Below, in pieces: positions 9,498 through 36,602 of a stretch of 36,602 nucleotides of DNA. Position 1 is the first letter of the stretch; each line of letters opens with the position of its first letter. The notes under the pieces are model-generated. The model worked only from the letters and a program-made list of their open reading frames with translations. It did not search any database and was not told the DNA's origin. The DNA lies in the NCBI GenBank assembly GCA_013178415.1, contig JABLXA010000023.1, positions 1-36,602 on the forward strand. Direction: 5' to 3'. The position numbers were made by a program, and so were the translations under genes. Origin of the DNA: Bacillota bacterium (GTDB taxonomy: Bacteria; Bacillota; SHA-98; Ch115).

Positions 9498-9621
9498 TGA
9501 TGGTATTACCTGACGAAGCCAGACCGCGGCAGATGTTAGGGCGATGGTCGGAATGATAGAAGCCTGGCGGGAACAGACGCCGGTTTTCCAGGGGATGCAG
9601 GAAGGGTGTAAGTCAATTGAA

Positions 9622-10488
9622 ATGAGCGACATGTCTTATCATCCACTCATTGGTATCTCCTGTTCTTTTGAACGACGGGACTCGCAAGATCCCGGGAGGG
9701 ACCGGTTTTTTCTCAATGCCGATTATGGTCGCGCCATCACGGCTGCTGGCGCCATTCCCGTGATCATTCCACATGTGTCGCCGGAAGACAGGGACGGTGA
9801 TGCTCTGAAGGAGCATGTAGATATGATTCTTCAGCGCTTGGATGGTATTTTGCTTTCCGGAGGGGGAGACATTGATCCAGCCTTCTATGGCGAATCTCGC
9901 CATCCGAGGTGCGGCTCCCCTGATAAGATGAGAGATGAACTAGAATTGCTTCTTGCTAGGCGGGCTGTCTCTCTGGATCTGCCCTTGCTGGCTATATGTA
10001 GAGGTATACAGGTATTGAATGTAGCTTTTGGTGGTACCCTGTTTCAGGATATACCAGACCAGATTTCGGGGGCAAGCAGGCATGACTTCGCCGGAACCGG
10101 ATCACGCGAGGATAGAGCCCATAGGGTCAGGGTTATGCCGGGTTCTCTTTTAGGAAAGATCCTGTCATGTATGGAAGAGTCCAAAGATCCCGGAATGTAT
10201 CTCATGATAGAGGTGAATAGTTTCCACCACCAGGCGGTAAAGCGGCTAGCTCCAGGATTCAATGCAATTGCATTTTCGGAAAAGGATGAGATAATAGAAG
10301 CGATCGAAGCCAGAGACAAGCAGTTTTGCCTGGGGGTCCAGTGGCATCCTGAGGCCATGACTAAGTCGAATGAGCCTGCAAGGCGTATCTTTGAGGCCTT
10401 CGTGCGGGCCGCCACGGCTTTCGGACGCAACAGACAAAGGAGGAAGGAGAATAGCCGCGGGGCATCCCGCGGAGTTGCTGCATCTTGA
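9622..10488 (+). CDS. C26-family gamma-glutamyl amide hydrolase (PuuD-like)
   Basis: This class I glutamine-amidotransferase-fold hydrolase is like gamma-glutamyl-GABA hydrolase (PuuD), which releases glutamate from gamma-glutamyl amides; the real substrate is not known. Visible are PLIGISC at the N-terminus, LSGGGDIDPAFYG (oxyanion region), the nucleophile in LLAICRGIQ (Cys about residue 126) and QWHPE (His about residue 241). Length (288 residues from the chosen start) is slightly above the usual 240-260 because of a basic C-terminal tail. The start is uncertain: the ATG at 9622 best fits the family N-terminus, but the frame stays open to an ATG at 9544 and neither has a well-placed ribosome binding site. 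Its stop overlaps the start of the CsoR-family gene (TTGA), so the two are translationally coupled. Confidence 0.88.
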   Translation: MSDMSYHPLIGISCSFERRDSQDPGRDRFFLNADYGRAITAAGAIPVIIPHVSPEDRDGDALKEHVDMILQRLDGILLSGGGDIDPAFYGESRHPRCGSPDKMRDELELLLARRAVSLDLPLLAICRGIQVLNVAFGGTLFQDIPDQISGASRHDFAGTGSREDRAHRVRVMPGSLLGKILSCMEESKDPGMYLMIEVNSFHHQAVKRLAPGFNAIAFSEKDEIIEAIEARDKQFCLGVQWHPEAMTKSNEPARRIFEAFVRAATAFGRNRQRRKENSRGASRGVAAS

Positions 10489-14042: not shown

Positions 14043-15810
14043 GGAAGATGAGGCGTATCAACGCCCATTCGATCAAAAGCAATTTATTCGCCTTCTTCGC
14101 TATTTGATCCCGCACAGGATCAGGGTAGCGTATGTCATCGTCCTTGTTATAGTGGCAGGATTTGTAAACCAGGCGACACCATACTTGATGAAGATTGGAA
14201 TAGACACGTATATAAAGTCAATGGATCTGAGAGGCCTCAATCTATTGGCAGGACTTCTCTTGGCATGCAATGTCACCGGTTGGATTGCCGCTTATCTCAG
14301 GACCTATCTCATGGCCTATATAGGTCAGAATGTGTTATATACTATGCGGCAAGAACTCTTCACGCACATACAATGGCTTTCATTCAGGTTCTATGATTCG
14401 CGGCCCGCTGGCAAGATCATAGCTCGCATCACAGGCGATGTGGGAACTCTAAATGACCTTATCACAAATGGCATCATAAATATCGTGGCTGATTCCGTAA
14501 ACCTCGTCATAATAGTGATTGCGCTCCTTTCAATGCATGTCAAGCTGGCTCTTCTCTCCTTCTGTATCCTGCCATTTATGGCTATATGGGCTCTTCGCCT
14601 GAGGCCCAGGATCCGGCTCCTTTGGAGGATGGTGCGCGCCAGGATTTCGGCCATAAATGCGAATCTCAACGAGAGTATCCTGGGCATGAAGGTGACTCAG
14701 GCGTTTGTCAGAGAAGACCGCAATCTTGAGAACTTCAGAGACCTGCTCAAGAAGAACCTTGATACCTGGATGAAAGCAATATCCCTTAACGTAATTTTCG
14801 GTCCCGTGGTCGAGGTCATCGGCACCATTGGAACATGTGTCGTGATCTGGTATGGGGTAAGGGAAATAGCAAGCGGGCGAATGACGGTGGGCATGATAAT
14901 GGCATTCTTGAGTTACCTTGGAAGGTTCTGGGCGCCCGTTAGCACTCTCACTAACTTCTATGGTCAGGTACAGGCAGCAATGGCGTCATCAGAAAGGGTT
15001 TTTGAATTTCTGGATACCCGACCCGAGATAGAGGAGAAACCGGGCGCCGTTGCGCTCCCGCCAATCAAGGGGGCTGTCAATTTCGAGCATGTATCATTTG
15101 GCTACGAGCCGGGCCAGGTGGTATTAAAGGATTTTTCTCTTTCTGTGAGACCCGGCGAGACCATCGCCCTAGTAGGACCCACAGGGGCAGGCAAGACTTC
15201 CATAGTCAACCTTCTTAATCGCTTCTATGATCCAACTGAGGGGCGCATCACCATCGACGGGTATGATATTCGTGATGTCACTCTAAAATCCCTGAGAAGT
15301 CAGATCGGCATCGTGCTGCAGGACACGGTCCTCTTCTCTGGGAGCATCGAGGACAATATCCGCTATGGCAAGCTAGATGCTTCGATGGAGGAGATAGAAG
15401 AGGCAGCGCGCATCGCCAATATTCATGATTTCATAATGCAGCTTCCTCAGGGATATAAGACAGAGATCGAAGAACGGGGTTCCAAACTGTCAGTTGGTCA
15501 GAGACAGCTCCTTTCTCTGGCCAGGGCGGTGTTGGCAAATCCCAGGATACTTATCTTAGATGAGGCAACATCCAATATAGACGCGCGCACTGAGATGCTG
15601 CTGCAGGAGGCCATCGAGCGTGTTTTAAAAGGTAGGACCTCTTTTGTGATCGCTCACCGGCTCTCCACGATACGGAACGCGAACCGGATCGTGGTGATTG
15701 AAAATGGCCGGATCGCTCAGATGGGAACCCATGAGGAACTCATAAATACCCCCGGCATATATCGGGATCTATCTCTCTCCCAGGTTCGCGAGCAATCTCT
15801 GGCGGTTTAG
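14023..15810 (+). CDS. heterodimeric ABC exporter subunit, catalytic ATPase site
   Basis: This is the second half-transporter of the exporter. A polar, acidic N-terminus (EEDEAYQRPF) precedes six membrane helices (about 35-320) and the ATPase domain. Walker A is GPTGAGKTS (near 385) and Walker B LILDEATSN (near 510) with the catalytic Glu, while the signature is altered to LSVGQRQL (near 489). Combined with the upstream subunit, one composite site is complete (this Walker B plus that LSGGQ) and one is degenerate. The ATG at 14023 is five bases after GGAGGG inside the end of the previous gene, so the subunits are translationally coupled. The substrate cannot be inferred. No regulator sits next to the pair. 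Confidence 0.94.
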   Translation: MPRQIDEEDEAYQRPFDQKQFIRLLRYLIPHRIRVAYVIVLVIVAGFVNQATPYLMKIGIDTYIKSMDLRGLNLLAGLLLACNVTGWIAAYLRTYLMAYIGQNVLYTMRQELFTHIQWLSFRFYDSRPAGKIIARITGDVGTLNDLITNGIINIVADSVNLVIIVIALLSMHVKLALLSFCILPFMAIWALRLRPRIRLLWRMVRARISAINANLNESILGMKVTQAFVREDRNLENFRDLLKKNLDTWMKAISLNVIFGPVVEVIGTIGTCVVIWYGVREIASGRMTVGMIMAFLSYLGRFWAPVSTLTNFYGQVQAAMASSERVFEFLDTRPEIEEKPGAVALPPIKGAVNFEHVSFGYEPGQVVLKDFSLSVRPGETIALVGPTGAGKTSIVNLLNRFYDPTEGRITIDGYDIRDVTLKSLRSQIGIVLQDTVLFSGSIEDNIRYGKLDASMEEIEEAARIANIHDFIMQLPQGYKTEIEERGSKLSVGQRQLLSLARAVLANPRILILDEATSNIDARTEMLLQEAIERVLKGRTSFVIAHRLSTIRNANRIVVIENGRIAQMGTHEELINTPGIYRDLSLSQVREQSLAV

Positions 15811-15929
15811 GGTTGCCCCGGGTGGCGCTAGAACTGAGCCGCTGAGTCGATGGCTACTCGATTGCTTGCGAGCAGGAGCCTGGGGCATTCGAGGCGATTG
15901 GGCGATCAGCGATGAGGCGATTCGGGCTA

Positions 15930-15958
15930 TTGACTCATGGCAATATGCATGATACAAT
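15930..15958 (+). promoter_or_regulatory. promoter of tRNA-Glu
   Basis: TTGACT (15930-15935) and TACAAT (15953-15958) are spaced 17 bp apart, with the mature tRNA starting 28 bases after the second box. Confidence 0.75.
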
Positions 15959-15986
15959 GTTTTTGTCTCAAGGGTAGAGGAATTGT

Positions 15987-33248: not shown

Positions 33249-33800
33249 TCAGGCTTTCTCCACCGGGTGACGGAGGACGGTTTTCAACTTCTCCGGTTTG
33301 CTCTTCCTCGGGTCGGACAGATAGATTTCGTGATGTTTGCCATCGCTGCCCAGCCGGCACTTCAGGCCATGGGACCGGATGAAGTCGTCGATCTTGGCTA
33401 TCGTCTCAGGCTCGGTCGAGTAGGGGCCAATGTGCATGGTCTGAACACACAGCCCCTCATCAAATCCTTCAAACTTGGCTTTGTCCACGGGGAGGTCCGG
33501 TTTCTTCGCGGCTAATTCCTGGACGGCCCAGGCGAAAACCTCCCGGGTCACAAATTCAGGCTGGCGGATCATAAGGGTCCACCGCCAGTTATCCCTTTCT
33601 TCAAAGGAAAACCCTCCGCCATCAATCCACCAGAGTCCTTCCAGGGGTGGGACAACATAGTCAAAATATCCTTCTGGCTGCTTGTTCTTCATTTTACTCA
33701 TTTTTATGATGAAAGATAAGCCGTAGAGCAGCTCCACCGCCTGTTGGAACGCTTGATTGCCGTTGGGATCCCCCGTACCGTCCAGCATGATGAAATGCAT
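33249..33800 (-). CDS. GyrI-like small-molecule-binding protein, 5'-truncated
   Basis: The frame aligns with standalone GyrI-like proteins (the SOUL/BmrR effector-binding fold), with GTGDPNGNQAFQQAVELLYG at the start and GLCVQTMHIGPYSTEPETI in the middle. Relatives start 20-25 residues earlier, with a segment of the type KKEYKELYLP, which is absent here. The ATG at 33800 has no ribosome binding site and lies where an attC-like half site begins. It therefore looks as if recombination or deletion removed the 5' end of the gene. It may still produce a shortened protein but is more likely inactive. The rest of the frame is intact. Confidence 0.7.
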   Translation of the reverse strand: MHFIMLDGTGDPNGNQAFQQAVELLYGLSFIIKMSKMKNKQPEGYFDYVVPPLEGLWWIDGGGFSFEERDNWRWTLMIRQPEFVTREVFAWAVQELAAKKPDLPVDKAKFEGFDEGLCVQTMHIGPYSTEPETIAKIDDFIRSHGLKCRLGSDGKHHEIYLSDPRKSKPEKLKTVLRHPVEKA

Positions 33801-33855
33801 AGATGGAACCGTGACCAGTCACTTACACAGCGTCCGCTAAATACGCCGGTTAGTC
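33801..33855 (-). repeat. half attC-like site downstream of the HAD gene
   Basis: On the minus strand this begins with the box GACTAAC (33855-33849, RYYYAAC-like) and continues with CCGGCGTATTTAGCGGACGC, matching the left half shared by the other attC-like sites. The right half (ending GTTRRRY) is missing; the DNA continues instead into the truncated GyrI-like gene. It starts 24 bases after the HAD stop, the normal attC position. Confidence 0.5.
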
Positions 33856-33879
33856 ACTCTCCCACATTGACACTCGAAT

Positions 33880-34443
33880 CTAAGGGCGCTTGGTGTCTTC
33901 TGCGATCCAGCGAGCGGCTTCTAAGACGTCTCGAGCCACGAAATCAGGCTCGATACCAGCCCAGAGGTGTCTATACTCTCCAAGGGATCCTTCGCCTAGC
34001 CCCGTTCGAACCAAGATCGCCTTACATCCAATCGACCGGGCGAGGACCATGTCGCATGCACCAGCGTCTCCCACGAGGTAACATCCCGACAAATCAAGGT
34101 CAAAGTCCTCTTGAGCCCGATGCACCAAACCGGGCAAAGGCTTTCTGCATGTACATCGGTCATTGGATGCATGGGGACAACAGTAGTCCGCGTCAAGATA
34201 CGCCCCTTGCGCTGCCAACTCTCGCTTCAGTTGCTCCATGCGTCTCCCGTAGTCTTCCCACGTGAAGTAGCCTTTGGCAATGTGGCTCTGATTGGTGACC
34301 ACGATCGCGAGCAATCCCGCGTCGTTGAGGAGTCGAATGGCGGCCGCCGTGAAGGGGTAAAAAGCAAAGCTCATGATATCTCCCGAACCCGCTCCACCGA
34401 GCGTGCCCTGGAGGTCAAGAAAGACTGCTATACGTTTGCTCAC
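33880..34443 (-). CDS. HAD-IIIA phosphatase (GmhB-like) with altered DxD motif
   Basis: HAD-superfamily phosphatase resembling D-glycero-D-manno-heptose-1,7-bisphosphate 7-phosphatase. Visible are FLDLQGTLGG at the N-terminus, the threonine motif IVVTNQSHIAKG (about 46-57), a zinc-type loop CCPHASNDRCTCRKP (about 90-104), and VGDAGACDMVLA for the last acidic motif. The nucleophile Asp10 is present, but the general acid two residues later is Gln12 instead of Asp (DLQ in place of DxD). A Gln there is unusual and may alter or abolish phosphatase activity. The GTG at 34443 has AAAGGTGG nine bases before it. The gene forms a cassette with the attC-like sites on either side. Confidence 0.82.
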   Translation of the reverse strand: MSKRIAVFLDLQGTLGGAGSGDIMSFAFYPFTAAAIRLLNDAGLLAIVVTNQSHIAKGYFTWEDYGRRMEQLKRELAAQGAYLDADYCCPHASNDRCTCRKPLPGLVHRAQEDFDLDLSGCYLVGDAGACDMVLARSIGCKAILVRTGLGEGSLGEYRHLWAGIEPDFVARDVLEAARWIAEDTKRP

Positions 34444-34476
34444 ACATCTCGACCACCTTTCGCAGGAAAGCAAAGT

Positions 34477-34565
34477 GGCTAGCGTTCTGGCGTATCAGCG
34501 GCGTCTGTCGCCGCATACACCAGAATGCCAACCCTTCACCGAGTCCGCTGAACGCTTGTTAGAAC
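34477..34565 (-). repeat. attC-like recombination site
   Basis: Minus-strand ends are GTTCTAAC (from 34565) and GCTAGCC (34483-34477). Inside them, AAGCGTTCAGCGGACTC at one end is nearly complementary to GCCGCTGATACGCCAGAAC at the other, with unpaired bases in the manner of attC folded structures. The element is about 89 bp and lies between the gene at 34665-34994 and the HAD gene, which starts 34 bases further on. The second box departs from GTTRRRY in its second base. Confidence 0.7.
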
Positions 34566-34664
34566 GGGATGATCCAACCAAAGCGCTAATGGTCTGTGCC
34601 GCCCCGTAGGGCCTCTGGGTAAGACGTACCGACTACACCTTCTCAATTGGATTACTACAAGTTA

Positions 34665-34994
34665 CTACAAGTTGGCTATTTCCTTAATTGCGGAGACCTT
34701 GTCCTCCTGTAATCCATCAAGTTCGGATTCGTCCAACCAACCTTCTCTTAGCAGTCTAGCGAACACGAAGATAAGAACCGAATACCTATAATCGTACTTC
34801 TCATCCACCTCTCGGCGCTTCTTACTCAAGAAATCGTGCACGCGCCAGACGTCATTAGCGTTAGTGAGTTCGGCCAACATGGCGCTAACGCGCTCTCTGA
34901 TAGCGTCACATTCTCGTTGATACGCACGCTCAAAGGCCTGCCTTGCGATCTTCTTCTCCCGGTTGGACCACTTGAGATCTCTCAGGTCTGTCAT
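34665..34994 (-). CDS. hypothetical cassette protein
   Basis: The 109-residue protein has no recognised domain. It is helical and charged (WSNREKKIARQAFERAYQRE near the N-terminus, named as a feature only), with the segments DVWRVHDFLSKKRREVDEKYDYRYS and FARLLREGWLDESEL. No signal peptide, membrane span or cysteine is present. The ATG at 34994 has AGGA eleven bases before it. It is placed between two attC-like sites, 36 and about 100 bases away, and reads in the cassette direction, so it is most likely an integron-cassette gene of unknown function. Confidence 0.65.
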   Translation of the reverse strand: MTDLRDLKWSNREKKIARQAFERAYQRECDAIRERVSAMLAELTNANDVWRVHDFLSKKRREVDEKYDYRYSVLIFVFARLLREGWLDESELDGLQEDKVSAIKEIANL

Positions 34995-35029
34995 GGTTCA
35001 CCAGTTCCTTTCGGCTCTATCGATCTGTA

Positions 35030-35104
35030 GCTTAGCGGCGCCCGCTTACCGGTCAAGAGTCGGGTTCAATCCCAAACGGAGTCCGCTGAATAAGCTTGTT
35101 GGGC
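35030..35104 (-). repeat. attC-like recombination site
   Basis: The minus strand opens with a perfect RYYYAAC box, GCCCAAC (35104-35098), and the shared AAGCTTATTCAGCGGACTCC, and ends with GCTAAGC (35036-35030), which departs from GTTRRRY in its second base. The flanks are partly complementary and the element is 75 bp. It lies 54 bases past the end of the decayed GNAT gene, the usual position for attC. Confidence 0.7.
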
Positions 35105-35157
35105 CGGCCCCCCGAGTCGTTTCTCATACAGAGCATGGCTTGGCCGGATAATGTAGT

Positions 35158-35605
35158 TCACTCAACTAAATTATAGCTAGCATTTTCGTAGTAACGACAC
35201 AATTTCATATTCTCGCCCCAGCAGTTAAGCCGAACGTATTCCTTATTGTGAGAATCTACTCACCGCTCAGACAACTCTAACGGACTGCGACCGACTTCCA
35301 GCCCCCATATGCACGGCGGATCGCGAGGCGGTGAATATAGCCTGCATCGCCAAGGCGATCGCCCCAGGTCATCTCGTCTTCCCATTGCACCGTTACTGTT
35401 CCAATAGATACCCCGTGATCTTTGCAATATACAACTCCCCACGCTTGGCCTTCTCACTCCACGGGGCCACCCGTTTAAATCGATCAGGTGGCCACCATTG
35501 ATCAATACCCCGAAGATGAAGCCACTCCGCTGCCTTTAGAACGGTCGATATAACGTTATCGAGTTCACTGGAATCGGCTTTCGTCACTTTGACCACGCCC
35601 CGCAT
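35158..35605 (-). pseudogene. GNAT acetyltransferase, broken by two frameshifts and a stop
   Basis: Reading from 35605, the first frame gives an N-terminal GNAT segment (VLKAAEWLHLRGIDQWWPP and RGELYIAKITG). A frame change near 35410 leads to IGTVTVQWEDEMTWGDR and AGYIHRLAIRRAYGG, the beta-4 and acetyl-CoA entry region. A second shift near 35310 leads to LEVGRSPLELSER, followed by TGA at about 35262. The same frame then continues with VRLNCWGENMKLCRYYENAS, the typical GNAT end, up to the stop at 35158. All parts of a complete GNAT are present and in order, so decay came after cassette capture. No active product is expected. Confidence 0.75.
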
Positions 35606-35639
35606 CTAGTCTTCGAACGCAGTCACCAGCCTGATGGTC

Positions 35640-35713
35640 GCCCAACGTTCTCACGTATCAGCAGCGCCGCACCCCCGCCTCCATATCCGCCACCCACATT
35701 CCGGCGGTTAATA
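35640..35713 (-). repeat. attC-like recombination site, partly diverged
   Basis: The minus strand ends with GCTGCTGATACGTGAGAAC and a perfect GTTRRRY box, GTTGGGC (35646-35640), the same end as in the other sites. Its start is TATTAAC (35713-35707), which includes the TAA stop codon of the intact GNAT gene. The left flank (CCGCCGGAATGTGGGTGGCGG) differs from the shared AAGCTTATTCAGCGGAC, so pairing is weaker. It could be a decayed or hybrid site. Length is 74 bp. Confidence 0.55.
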
Positions 35714-36214
35714 TCGGAATTGGTGGCCATGAATAGTAACGCCGCTTTTCCACATTCTACCTCTCTCGGGCATCAGATCGAGAAACATCTCGAGCTGTCC
35801 CAGTAGCGAGAATCCCGCGCGGTAGAAGCAAGCAATTGCCTCGACGTTACGCGCCAATGGTCTGATGCTTAGAAACTGCACACCCCGCTTTTTGGCTTCC
35901 TTTTTGAGCCATTCGATCAACCCGGTGCCTACGCCTTGTGAGCGATACCGGTCACGTACGATCAGGGGCTCGATTTCAGCCTCATAGCCCTCCACCAGCA
36001 GACCAGCTAGCCCCACCACAGTCGAGCCTTTCTCGGCCACCCACGGGCCTATGTGATTCGGCTTTTTCAGGTACTGCTCAAAGTAGATACCGGGATCATC
36101 CCCGCCGATAGAAGGATCGCCATAAATGTCTCGGTGTCGCTGTGTGAGCTCTCGCCACAGCTCCCGACAGGCTTGAAAATCCTCATTCTGGTATTCTCGA
36201 ATAGTAAATGTCAT
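35708..36214 (-). CDS. GNAT N-acetyltransferase (cassette gene)
   Basis: The 168-residue acetyltransferase has the expected GNAT landmarks: FTIREYQNEDFQACRELWRE at the start, GPWVAEKGSTVVGLAGL, then VRDRYRSQGVGTGLIEWLKKEA (the acetyl-CoA loop Q/R-x-x-G-x-G/A is RSQGVGTG, about residues 93-100), and ACFYRAGFSLLGQLEMFLDL near 132-151. The ATG at 36214 fits a GAGGTGGAG site; a GTG at 36223 is the alternative. The acceptor substrate is unknown. Acetyltransferases are common integron cassettes; this one has its stop codon inside the downstream attC-like site and another site 46 bases upstream. Confidence 0.88.
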   Translation of the reverse strand: MTFTIREYQNEDFQACRELWRELTQRHRDIYGDPSIGGDDPGIYFEQYLKKPNHIGPWVAEKGSTVVGLAGLLVEGYEAEIEPLIVRDRYRSQGVGTGLIEWLKKEAKKRGVQFLSIRPLARNVEAIACFYRAGFSLLGQLEMFLDLMPERGRMWKSGVTIHGHQFRY

Positions 36215-36259
36215 TTGCTCCACCTCTGAAGTGGTCTTATGTGTGATTGTCCTTGGCGC

Positions 36260-36350
36260 GCCTAACGTTCTTGCGTATCAATGGCCTCGGTACTCGGTCC
36301 CCAAAAGAACCCTAGGGCGTCACTGCGTCCACTGAATAAGCTTGTTATGC
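36260..36350 (-). repeat. attC-like recombination site
   Basis: The minus strand opens with GCATAAC (36350-36344) and AAGCTTATTCAGTGGACGC and ends with GATACGCAAGAAC and GTTAGGC (36266-36260), a perfect GTTRRRY box. The flanks are complementary over most of their length with a few unpaired bases, and a central region of about 40 bases forms the loop. It is 91 bp. The previous gene fragment stops eight bases before it. Confidence 0.72.
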
Positions 36351-36357
36351 AGTCAGT

Positions 36358-36602
36358 TCACAACAATGCTTTAGCCAAGTCAATAGCCTCCCTGAGGTCG
36401 CGTAGCAAATCGCCATTGACCACAAGGTCCATACTCCCTCGTGCCCAGCTTGGGTGGCAGGGTCACGTCCTCTTCGGACGCTAATCGCCATTTCTCGCTG
36501 GAATCCAGGTCCTCCAGGAGGATCGCTCGTTCTGTGATGTGATACACTTTCAGTGTTGGGACACCTAGCTCCCGCAGCAGCTTATACGCGCCGATTTCAA
36601 CG
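36358..36602 (-). pseudogene. kinase/phosphotransferase-like fragment reaching the right edge
   Basis: From the window edge, one frame gives the N-lobe pattern of an aminoglycoside/fructosamine-type kinase: EIGAYKLLRELGVPTLKVY, AILLEDLDSSEKWRLASEED. It runs to a TGA at 36382-36380 through an unlikely tail. In another frame MDLVVNGDLLRDLREAIDLA leads to the stop TGA at 36360-36358 just ahead of the attC-like site. The two may be a frameshifted gene, or an edge gene joined to a second one. Only part of the gene is in the window. Confidence 0.4.

Follow-up and report, generated by a model that had tools for sequence, protein, structure and literature searches.

A probable decayed integron gene-cassette array lacking an integrase in a Bacillota genome

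Organisation of the array

The window analysed here, meaning the whole stretch of DNA under study, is a complete contig (C23, 36,602 bp) of a 3.57-Mb Bacillota draft assembly of 57 contigs, which is rated 100% complete with 2.6% contamination. SpoIVA (TIGR02836) was detected in this genome with 741 bits and, among 14 control genomes, solely in Bacillus subtilis, and its presence places the window genome among the endospore-type Bacillota. The 16S rRNA was sought in the genome and not found. At gathering scores, Rfam returned tRNA alone over the window and is thus no arbiter of attC sites.

The final 3.3 kb of the contig hold a cassette array whose reading direction is that of the minus strand, in the order end gene, site A, GNAT gene, relic B, broken frame, relic C, FRP-family gene, site D, HAD-IIIA gene, half site E and GyrI-like gene (Table 1). 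The GyrI-like gene is the last of the array, with no attC site downstream.

Table 1. Genes and attC-like elements of the array, in window coordinates
Feature	Position	Strand	Remarks
End cassette gene, 3' part	36361..36602	-	Runs off the contig end; phosphotransferase-like by motif only
attC-like site A	36260..36350	-	Sequence complete, GCATAAC...GTTAGGC, GCATAACAAGCTTATTCAGTGGAC...ATTGATACGCAAGAACGTTAGGC; hairpin weakened
GNAT acetyltransferase cassette gene, 171 aa	35708..36223	-	Pfam PF00583, E 1.9e-15
attC relic B	35640..35713	-	Right half GCTGCTGATACGTGAGAACGTTGGGC intact at 35640-35667
Second GNAT-type gene, probable remnant	about 35274..35605	-	Frameshifted, shortened; weak basis
attC relic C	35015..35107	-	GGCCCAACAAGCTTATTCAGCGGAC; left half CCAACAAGCTTATTCAGCGGAC intact, right half decayed
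FRP-family cassette gene, 109 aa	34665..34994	-	Pfam PF18032, E 1.6e-32
attC-like site D	34477..34564	-	Complete, TTCTAACAAGCGTTCAGCGGAC...GCTGATACGCCAGAACGCTAGCC; core GCTAGCC, left arm shortened
HAD-IIIA phosphatase (GmhB/HisB-like) cassette gene, 197 aa	33880..34473	-	NCBIfam TIGR01656 and TIGR01662 above cut-offs
Half site E (attC left half)	about 33820..33855	-	GACTAACCGGCGTATTTAGCGGACGC; direct repeat D1
GyrI-like gene, 5'-truncated	33249..33800	-	Pfam PF06445, E 7.1e-14; 96% identical copy on C16

Several of these genes are broken. Compared with its copy in a second array on contig C16, the end cassette gene has a 494-bp internal deletion and a frame change: in blastn, 36259-36454 corresponds to positions 9525-9720 of the C16 locus L022 (95%) and 36454-36602 to positions 10214-10362 (99%). 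A distance of 148 bp separates this deletion from the end of the contig, where an assembly error is possible. The full copy of the gene gave no Pfam or NCBIfam match. When the two frames that follow relic B were joined with an X at the shift, a sub-threshold Acetyltransf_1 match was obtained (E 0.023), which hints at the probable GNAT-type remnant listed in Table 1. Additionally, half site E is fused to the GyrI-like gene; the junction coincides with the start of homology to the C16 copy (33819), about 25 codons inside the longer reading of the C16 gene, which is itself frameshifted.

FRP-family proteins are best known from cyanobacteria, and Pfam describes the fluorescence recovery protein as a photoprotection regulator; here, the family is encoded by a cassette gene of a Bacillota genome. 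It was found in three of 398 phylum genomes, including G366, which also carries attC sites.

Descent and condition of the attC-like sites

Integron integrases (IntI) were defined in the 398 phylum genomes by TIGR02249 matches above the curated cut-off, and such matches occurred in two genomes only, G310 (482 and 382 bits) and G123 (375 bits). On the 3' side of the G310 integrases, sites with the pattern GCCTAACAAGCGTATTCAGCGGACGCCG...CGGCGCCGCTGATACGGCAGGACGTTAGGC are arranged in tandem. A covariance model, R1, was built from 14 aligned IntI-adjacent attC sites of G310, with no sequence of the window genome included; its structure is that of attC with two extra left-arm bases, and it served as a stand-in for the IntegronFinder model. 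R1 recognised the attC site of a dfrA1 cassette adjoining IntI on a Proteus record (L035, E 0.001), as well as three sites on an IntI-carrying plasmid of the cyanobacterium Kovacikia (L033, best E 5e-5).

Over the whole 3.57-Mb genome, with E values up to 1, R1 gave eight matches on four contigs: C17:25271, C16:70838, C23:36260 (site A), C23:34477 (site D), C16:71525, C16:72545, C54:66 and C23:35015 (relic C). Site A scored 46.7 bits (E 1.4e-8 genome-wide) and site D 40.7 bits (E 6.4e-7), and relic C stood near the threshold, with 20.8 bits and E 0.18 genome-wide, or 21.0 bits and E 1.6e-4 in a local unfiltered scan. In the same type of local scan, relic B reached 13.3 bits (E 0.021); it retains the right-half pattern with two mismatches, and relic C the left pattern with none. 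The extra left-arm bases, at R1 columns 16 and 23, set the cassette direction as the minus strand. Since a model made from IntI-adjacent sites of another genome matches the window sites, the locus is read as an attC cassette array, and sites A to D are, as judged from their sequences, of attC descent beyond chance. The covariance-model check put forward with the original prediction was therefore answered, through the stand-in R1, strongly for A and D and weakly for C, and the repeated boxes that it described are present on the minus strand at A to E.

A strict scan for consensus plus pairing over 33-36.6 kb found no window site, and its looser form did find the G310 sites; the failure of the strict scan was the first sign of erosion. 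Two pattern matches elsewhere were discarded for want of a partner arm: an exact left-box match in one Bacteroidales MAG, a chance match with no right arm, and a right-half match on C48 with three mismatches.

Folding was assessed on the bottom strand as DNA, comparing the expected arm-to-arm pairs with those of 100 shuffles. An arm-to-arm hairpin was recovered for 13 of the 14 G310 sites and all five attC sites from mobile integrons (each equalled by no more than 2 of the 100 shuffles), and the C16a, C16c, C54 and C17 sites of the window genome also passed. Sites A, B, C and D formed no such hairpin: their expected arm pairs were 2.2, 0.1, 5.4 and 0.6, with 34, 87, 23 and 69 of 100 shuffles doing as well, respectively. 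The A-like site on C16 likewise lacks the attC fold. Because the test was also failed by one IntI-adjacent G310 site and by the sites G180_3, G366_1 and G366_2 of relatives, the absence of folding is taken as evidence of decay only where other signs accompany it.

Such signs are the GCTAGCC core and alternative hairpin of site D, the lost right box of C, the reduction of B and E to halves, and the truncated or frameshifted genes. In the R1 alignment, 5 of 23 consensus pairs are broken in site A, 7 in D and about half in C. Measured against RYYYAAC/GTTRRRY, site A deviates once (GCATAAC, GTTAGGC), site D has TTCTAAC and GCTAGCC, relic C has no right box and the left box of relic B is altered, unrelated sequence that extends over the GNAT stop codon having taken the place of its left arm. 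In site D, the terminal spacer contains an inverted near-copy of the right arm (34477-34530, minus strand); the two pair over about 20 bp in an alternative hairpin of -19.1 kcal/mol (z about -3.2), and this arrangement suggests a quasi-palindrome that was likely 'corrected' by template switching. The window sites are thus classed as attC relics by descent and not as working attC sites.

The integrity of the sites had been overstated in the original prediction, in which the decay went unseen. Its four elements and one half are really two near-complete sites (A and D), one degraded site (C) and two halves (the right half B and the left half E). The imperfect complementarity with unpaired bases is weakly true within the R1 alignment, but no arm-to-arm DNA hairpin exists in A to D. 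The spacing of 0-60 bases between a stop codon and the following site holds for A, for B, where the stop overlaps the left edge, and for E (21 bases), but not for D, which starts 100 bases after the FRP stop, nor for C, which is preceded by a broken frame.

Integrase status, related arrays and alternative readings

The window contains no IntI, as the original prediction had stated, and none above the TIGR02249 cut-off was found in the whole genome, where the highest-ranking hits come from tyrosine recombinases that align without the IntI-specific stretch. A match to an integrase C-terminus at C24:5483-5764 was rejected, being a short open frame without the IntI-specific part. An IntI may be located on sequence absent from the assembly. 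The term CALIN, a cluster of attC sites lacking an integron integrase, is defined in IntegronFinder 2.0 and in an archaeal survey (PMC9024848, PMC9668308); it denotes two or more attC sites spaced by less than 4 kb, with no integron integrase nearby. By R1, sites A and D lie 1.7 kb apart with C between them, and no integron integrase is near; the intI gene that, with an adjacent attI, marks a complete integron was found in neither the window nor the genome. Given that the genome has no IntI above the cut-off, the CALIN label fits. The window resembles a CALIN in that small genes stand in tandem and point the same way, with an attC-type site after each and without IntI, but differs in that its sites are mostly eroded past folding, two of them are halves and several cassette genes are broken.

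The same family of sites recurs in relatives. At E 0.001, R1 matched 4 of 17 genomes of the class (the window genome, G180, G366 and G385) and, at E 1e-4 with stricter filters, 13 of 398 sampled genomes of the phylum. In G180, four gene-attC units follow one another cleanly in one orientation, without IntI. G310, from which R1 was derived, carries 14 or more attC sites in tandem and two IntI genes, and is probably Limnochorda pilosa HC45, considering its phylum and the sole complete Firmicutes integron reported (PMC9024848). Its attC family is that of the window (AACAAGCGTATTCAGCGGACG...GCCGCTGATACGGCAGAACGTTRGGC in G310 versus AACAAGCTTATTCAGCGGAC...GCTGATACG-N3-GAACGTTRGGC in the window), whereas its two IntI genes, long intact arrays and folding sites (13/14) set it apart. 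G123 belongs to the same class as the window genome and holds, on one small contig, an intI gene divergent from a minus-strand cassette gene; unlike the window it thus has an integrase, and its contig is too short to show an array. Aligned with IntI1, the G123 integrase (L031 2807-4168, G123:C122) shows 46% identity, and the alignment includes the IntI-specific region. Its C-terminal end gives way to unrelated sequence about 100 bases before the contig stops, through either truncation or an assembly break. No R1 match was obtained genome-wide in G123 at E 0.001, and the stretch after its cassette gene (L031 1968-2033), not an R1 match, is attC-like in our own reading. Among the array genes of relatives, L063 6411-7352 and L064 7178-8902 match the abortive-infection family Abi_C and AAA/AbiEii-type families, which suggests the presence of defence genes among their cassettes.

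Further arrays exist in the window genome. The version on C16 (L022 7729-12735, C16:69728-74734) shares its GyrI gene (96%) and its end gene (95-99%) with the window array and has other genes between them. C54 (L052) matches C16 at both ends (97%) and differs in its middle content. These versions on C16, C23 and C54 are compatible with duplicated arrays in one chromosome as well as with strain variants in a mixed assembly. L022 9055-9091 and window positions 35634-35668 share an orphan right half-site, and the bases after it are also similar; the preceding gene differs in each array, and on C16 an NlpC/P60-like frame reads through it. Just upstream of the C16 array, on the minus strand, lies a MazE-like antitoxin and PIN-domain toxin pair (L022 11616-12339). 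C54 and two places on C16 also share a repeat family with overlapping, shifted, tandem-like matches of 80-94% (L052 1000-1493, L022 3617-4162 and L053 about 15379-15974).

The fact that C16, C23 and C54 are variants 95-99% alike with different intervening genes is what cassette shuffling predicts, and it was considered whether the array is still active, its cassettes being mobile in trans through an IntI on an unassembled piece or in other strains. The ending of C23 and C54 inside cassettes, the sites of C16a, C16c, C54 and C17 that still fold as attC and the IntI of G123 in the same class would agree with this. However, no IntI above the cut-off exists in a genome rated 100% complete, and the non-folding sites and broken genes make it unlikely that the window part is active, even should sites elsewhere be live, so that an active array is regarded as improbable.

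Much less probable are two readings in which the array would not be native or not an array of attC sites at all. Dispersed palindromic repeats, REP or MITE-like, that merely resemble attC could account for the strong alternative hairpin in site D and for copies that are halves; against such repeats, which are very improbable, R1 from IntI-adjacent sites matches these elements and almost nothing else in 3.57 Mb, genes and sites alternate in a single orientation, and the same family occurs in tandem arrays adjoining IntI in G310. The original prediction had itself raised a chimera. In the corresponding reading, the contig end would be foreign, a piece of an integron from Proteobacteria or another group that was misjoined or misbinned with Bacillota sequence. 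A draft assembly in 57 contigs with 2.6% contamination can carry foreign contigs, and the deletion in the end gene lies close to the contig end. For the array, this worry is answered by sites of the same family on C16, on C54 and on C17, where the site lies 25 kb inside a 134-kb contig; moreover, the G+C content at 33-36 kb (0.53-0.55) is within the range of the remaining window (0.47-0.62), and the site family is present in three further genomes of the class. A foreign origin of the contig end therefore has very little likelihood. The R1 matches, the lack of IntI above the cut-off and SpoIVA support the CALIN-like array in a Bacillota genome that had been predicted, and the locus is best read, with a probability of about 0.88, as a decayed integron gene-cassette array without integrase (CALIN).

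Proposed history and significance

The decayed array would have arisen from small genes captured as circular cassettes, each with a terminal attC site whose bottom strand folds to a hairpin. As its anatomy and the IntI-bearing relatives suggest, an integron integrase would then have joined the cassettes head to tail on the minus strand, the source of this enzyme being an integron since lost, one unassembled or one acting from elsewhere. Without selection or integrase, the sites and gene ends appear from their sequences to have been eroded by substitutions and by deletions running through them, with a likely palindrome-correction event at site D. The array is probably no longer mobile.

Integrons have been described as extremely rare in Firmicutes, in which IntegronFinder 2.0 found one complete integron, that of Limnochorda pilosa, along with a few CALINs, and CALINs have been proposed to be degraded integrons (PMC9024848). 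The occurrence in Bacillota is less surprising than the original prediction supposed, since a Firmicutes integron and CALINs had already been reported (PMC9024848); the window array is consequently a further, partly broken member of a known system and not a new system. What is notable is its decay and the recurrence of one site family across the class.

That family, found in 4 of the 17 genomes of the class and in 13 of the 398 sampled from the phylum, versus a full IntI in 2 of 398, tentatively raises a broader picture, rather doubtful at present, of a Bacillota class with its own long-standing integron lineage, in which the attC family is shared and IntI comes and goes. Mainly integrase-less arrays would be served in trans or by strain exchange, and cassette traffic would reach spore-formers beyond the surveys of cultured genomes. 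The locus offers an example of array decay where no integrase is found, and the participation of spore-formers in cassette exchange is now directly testable.
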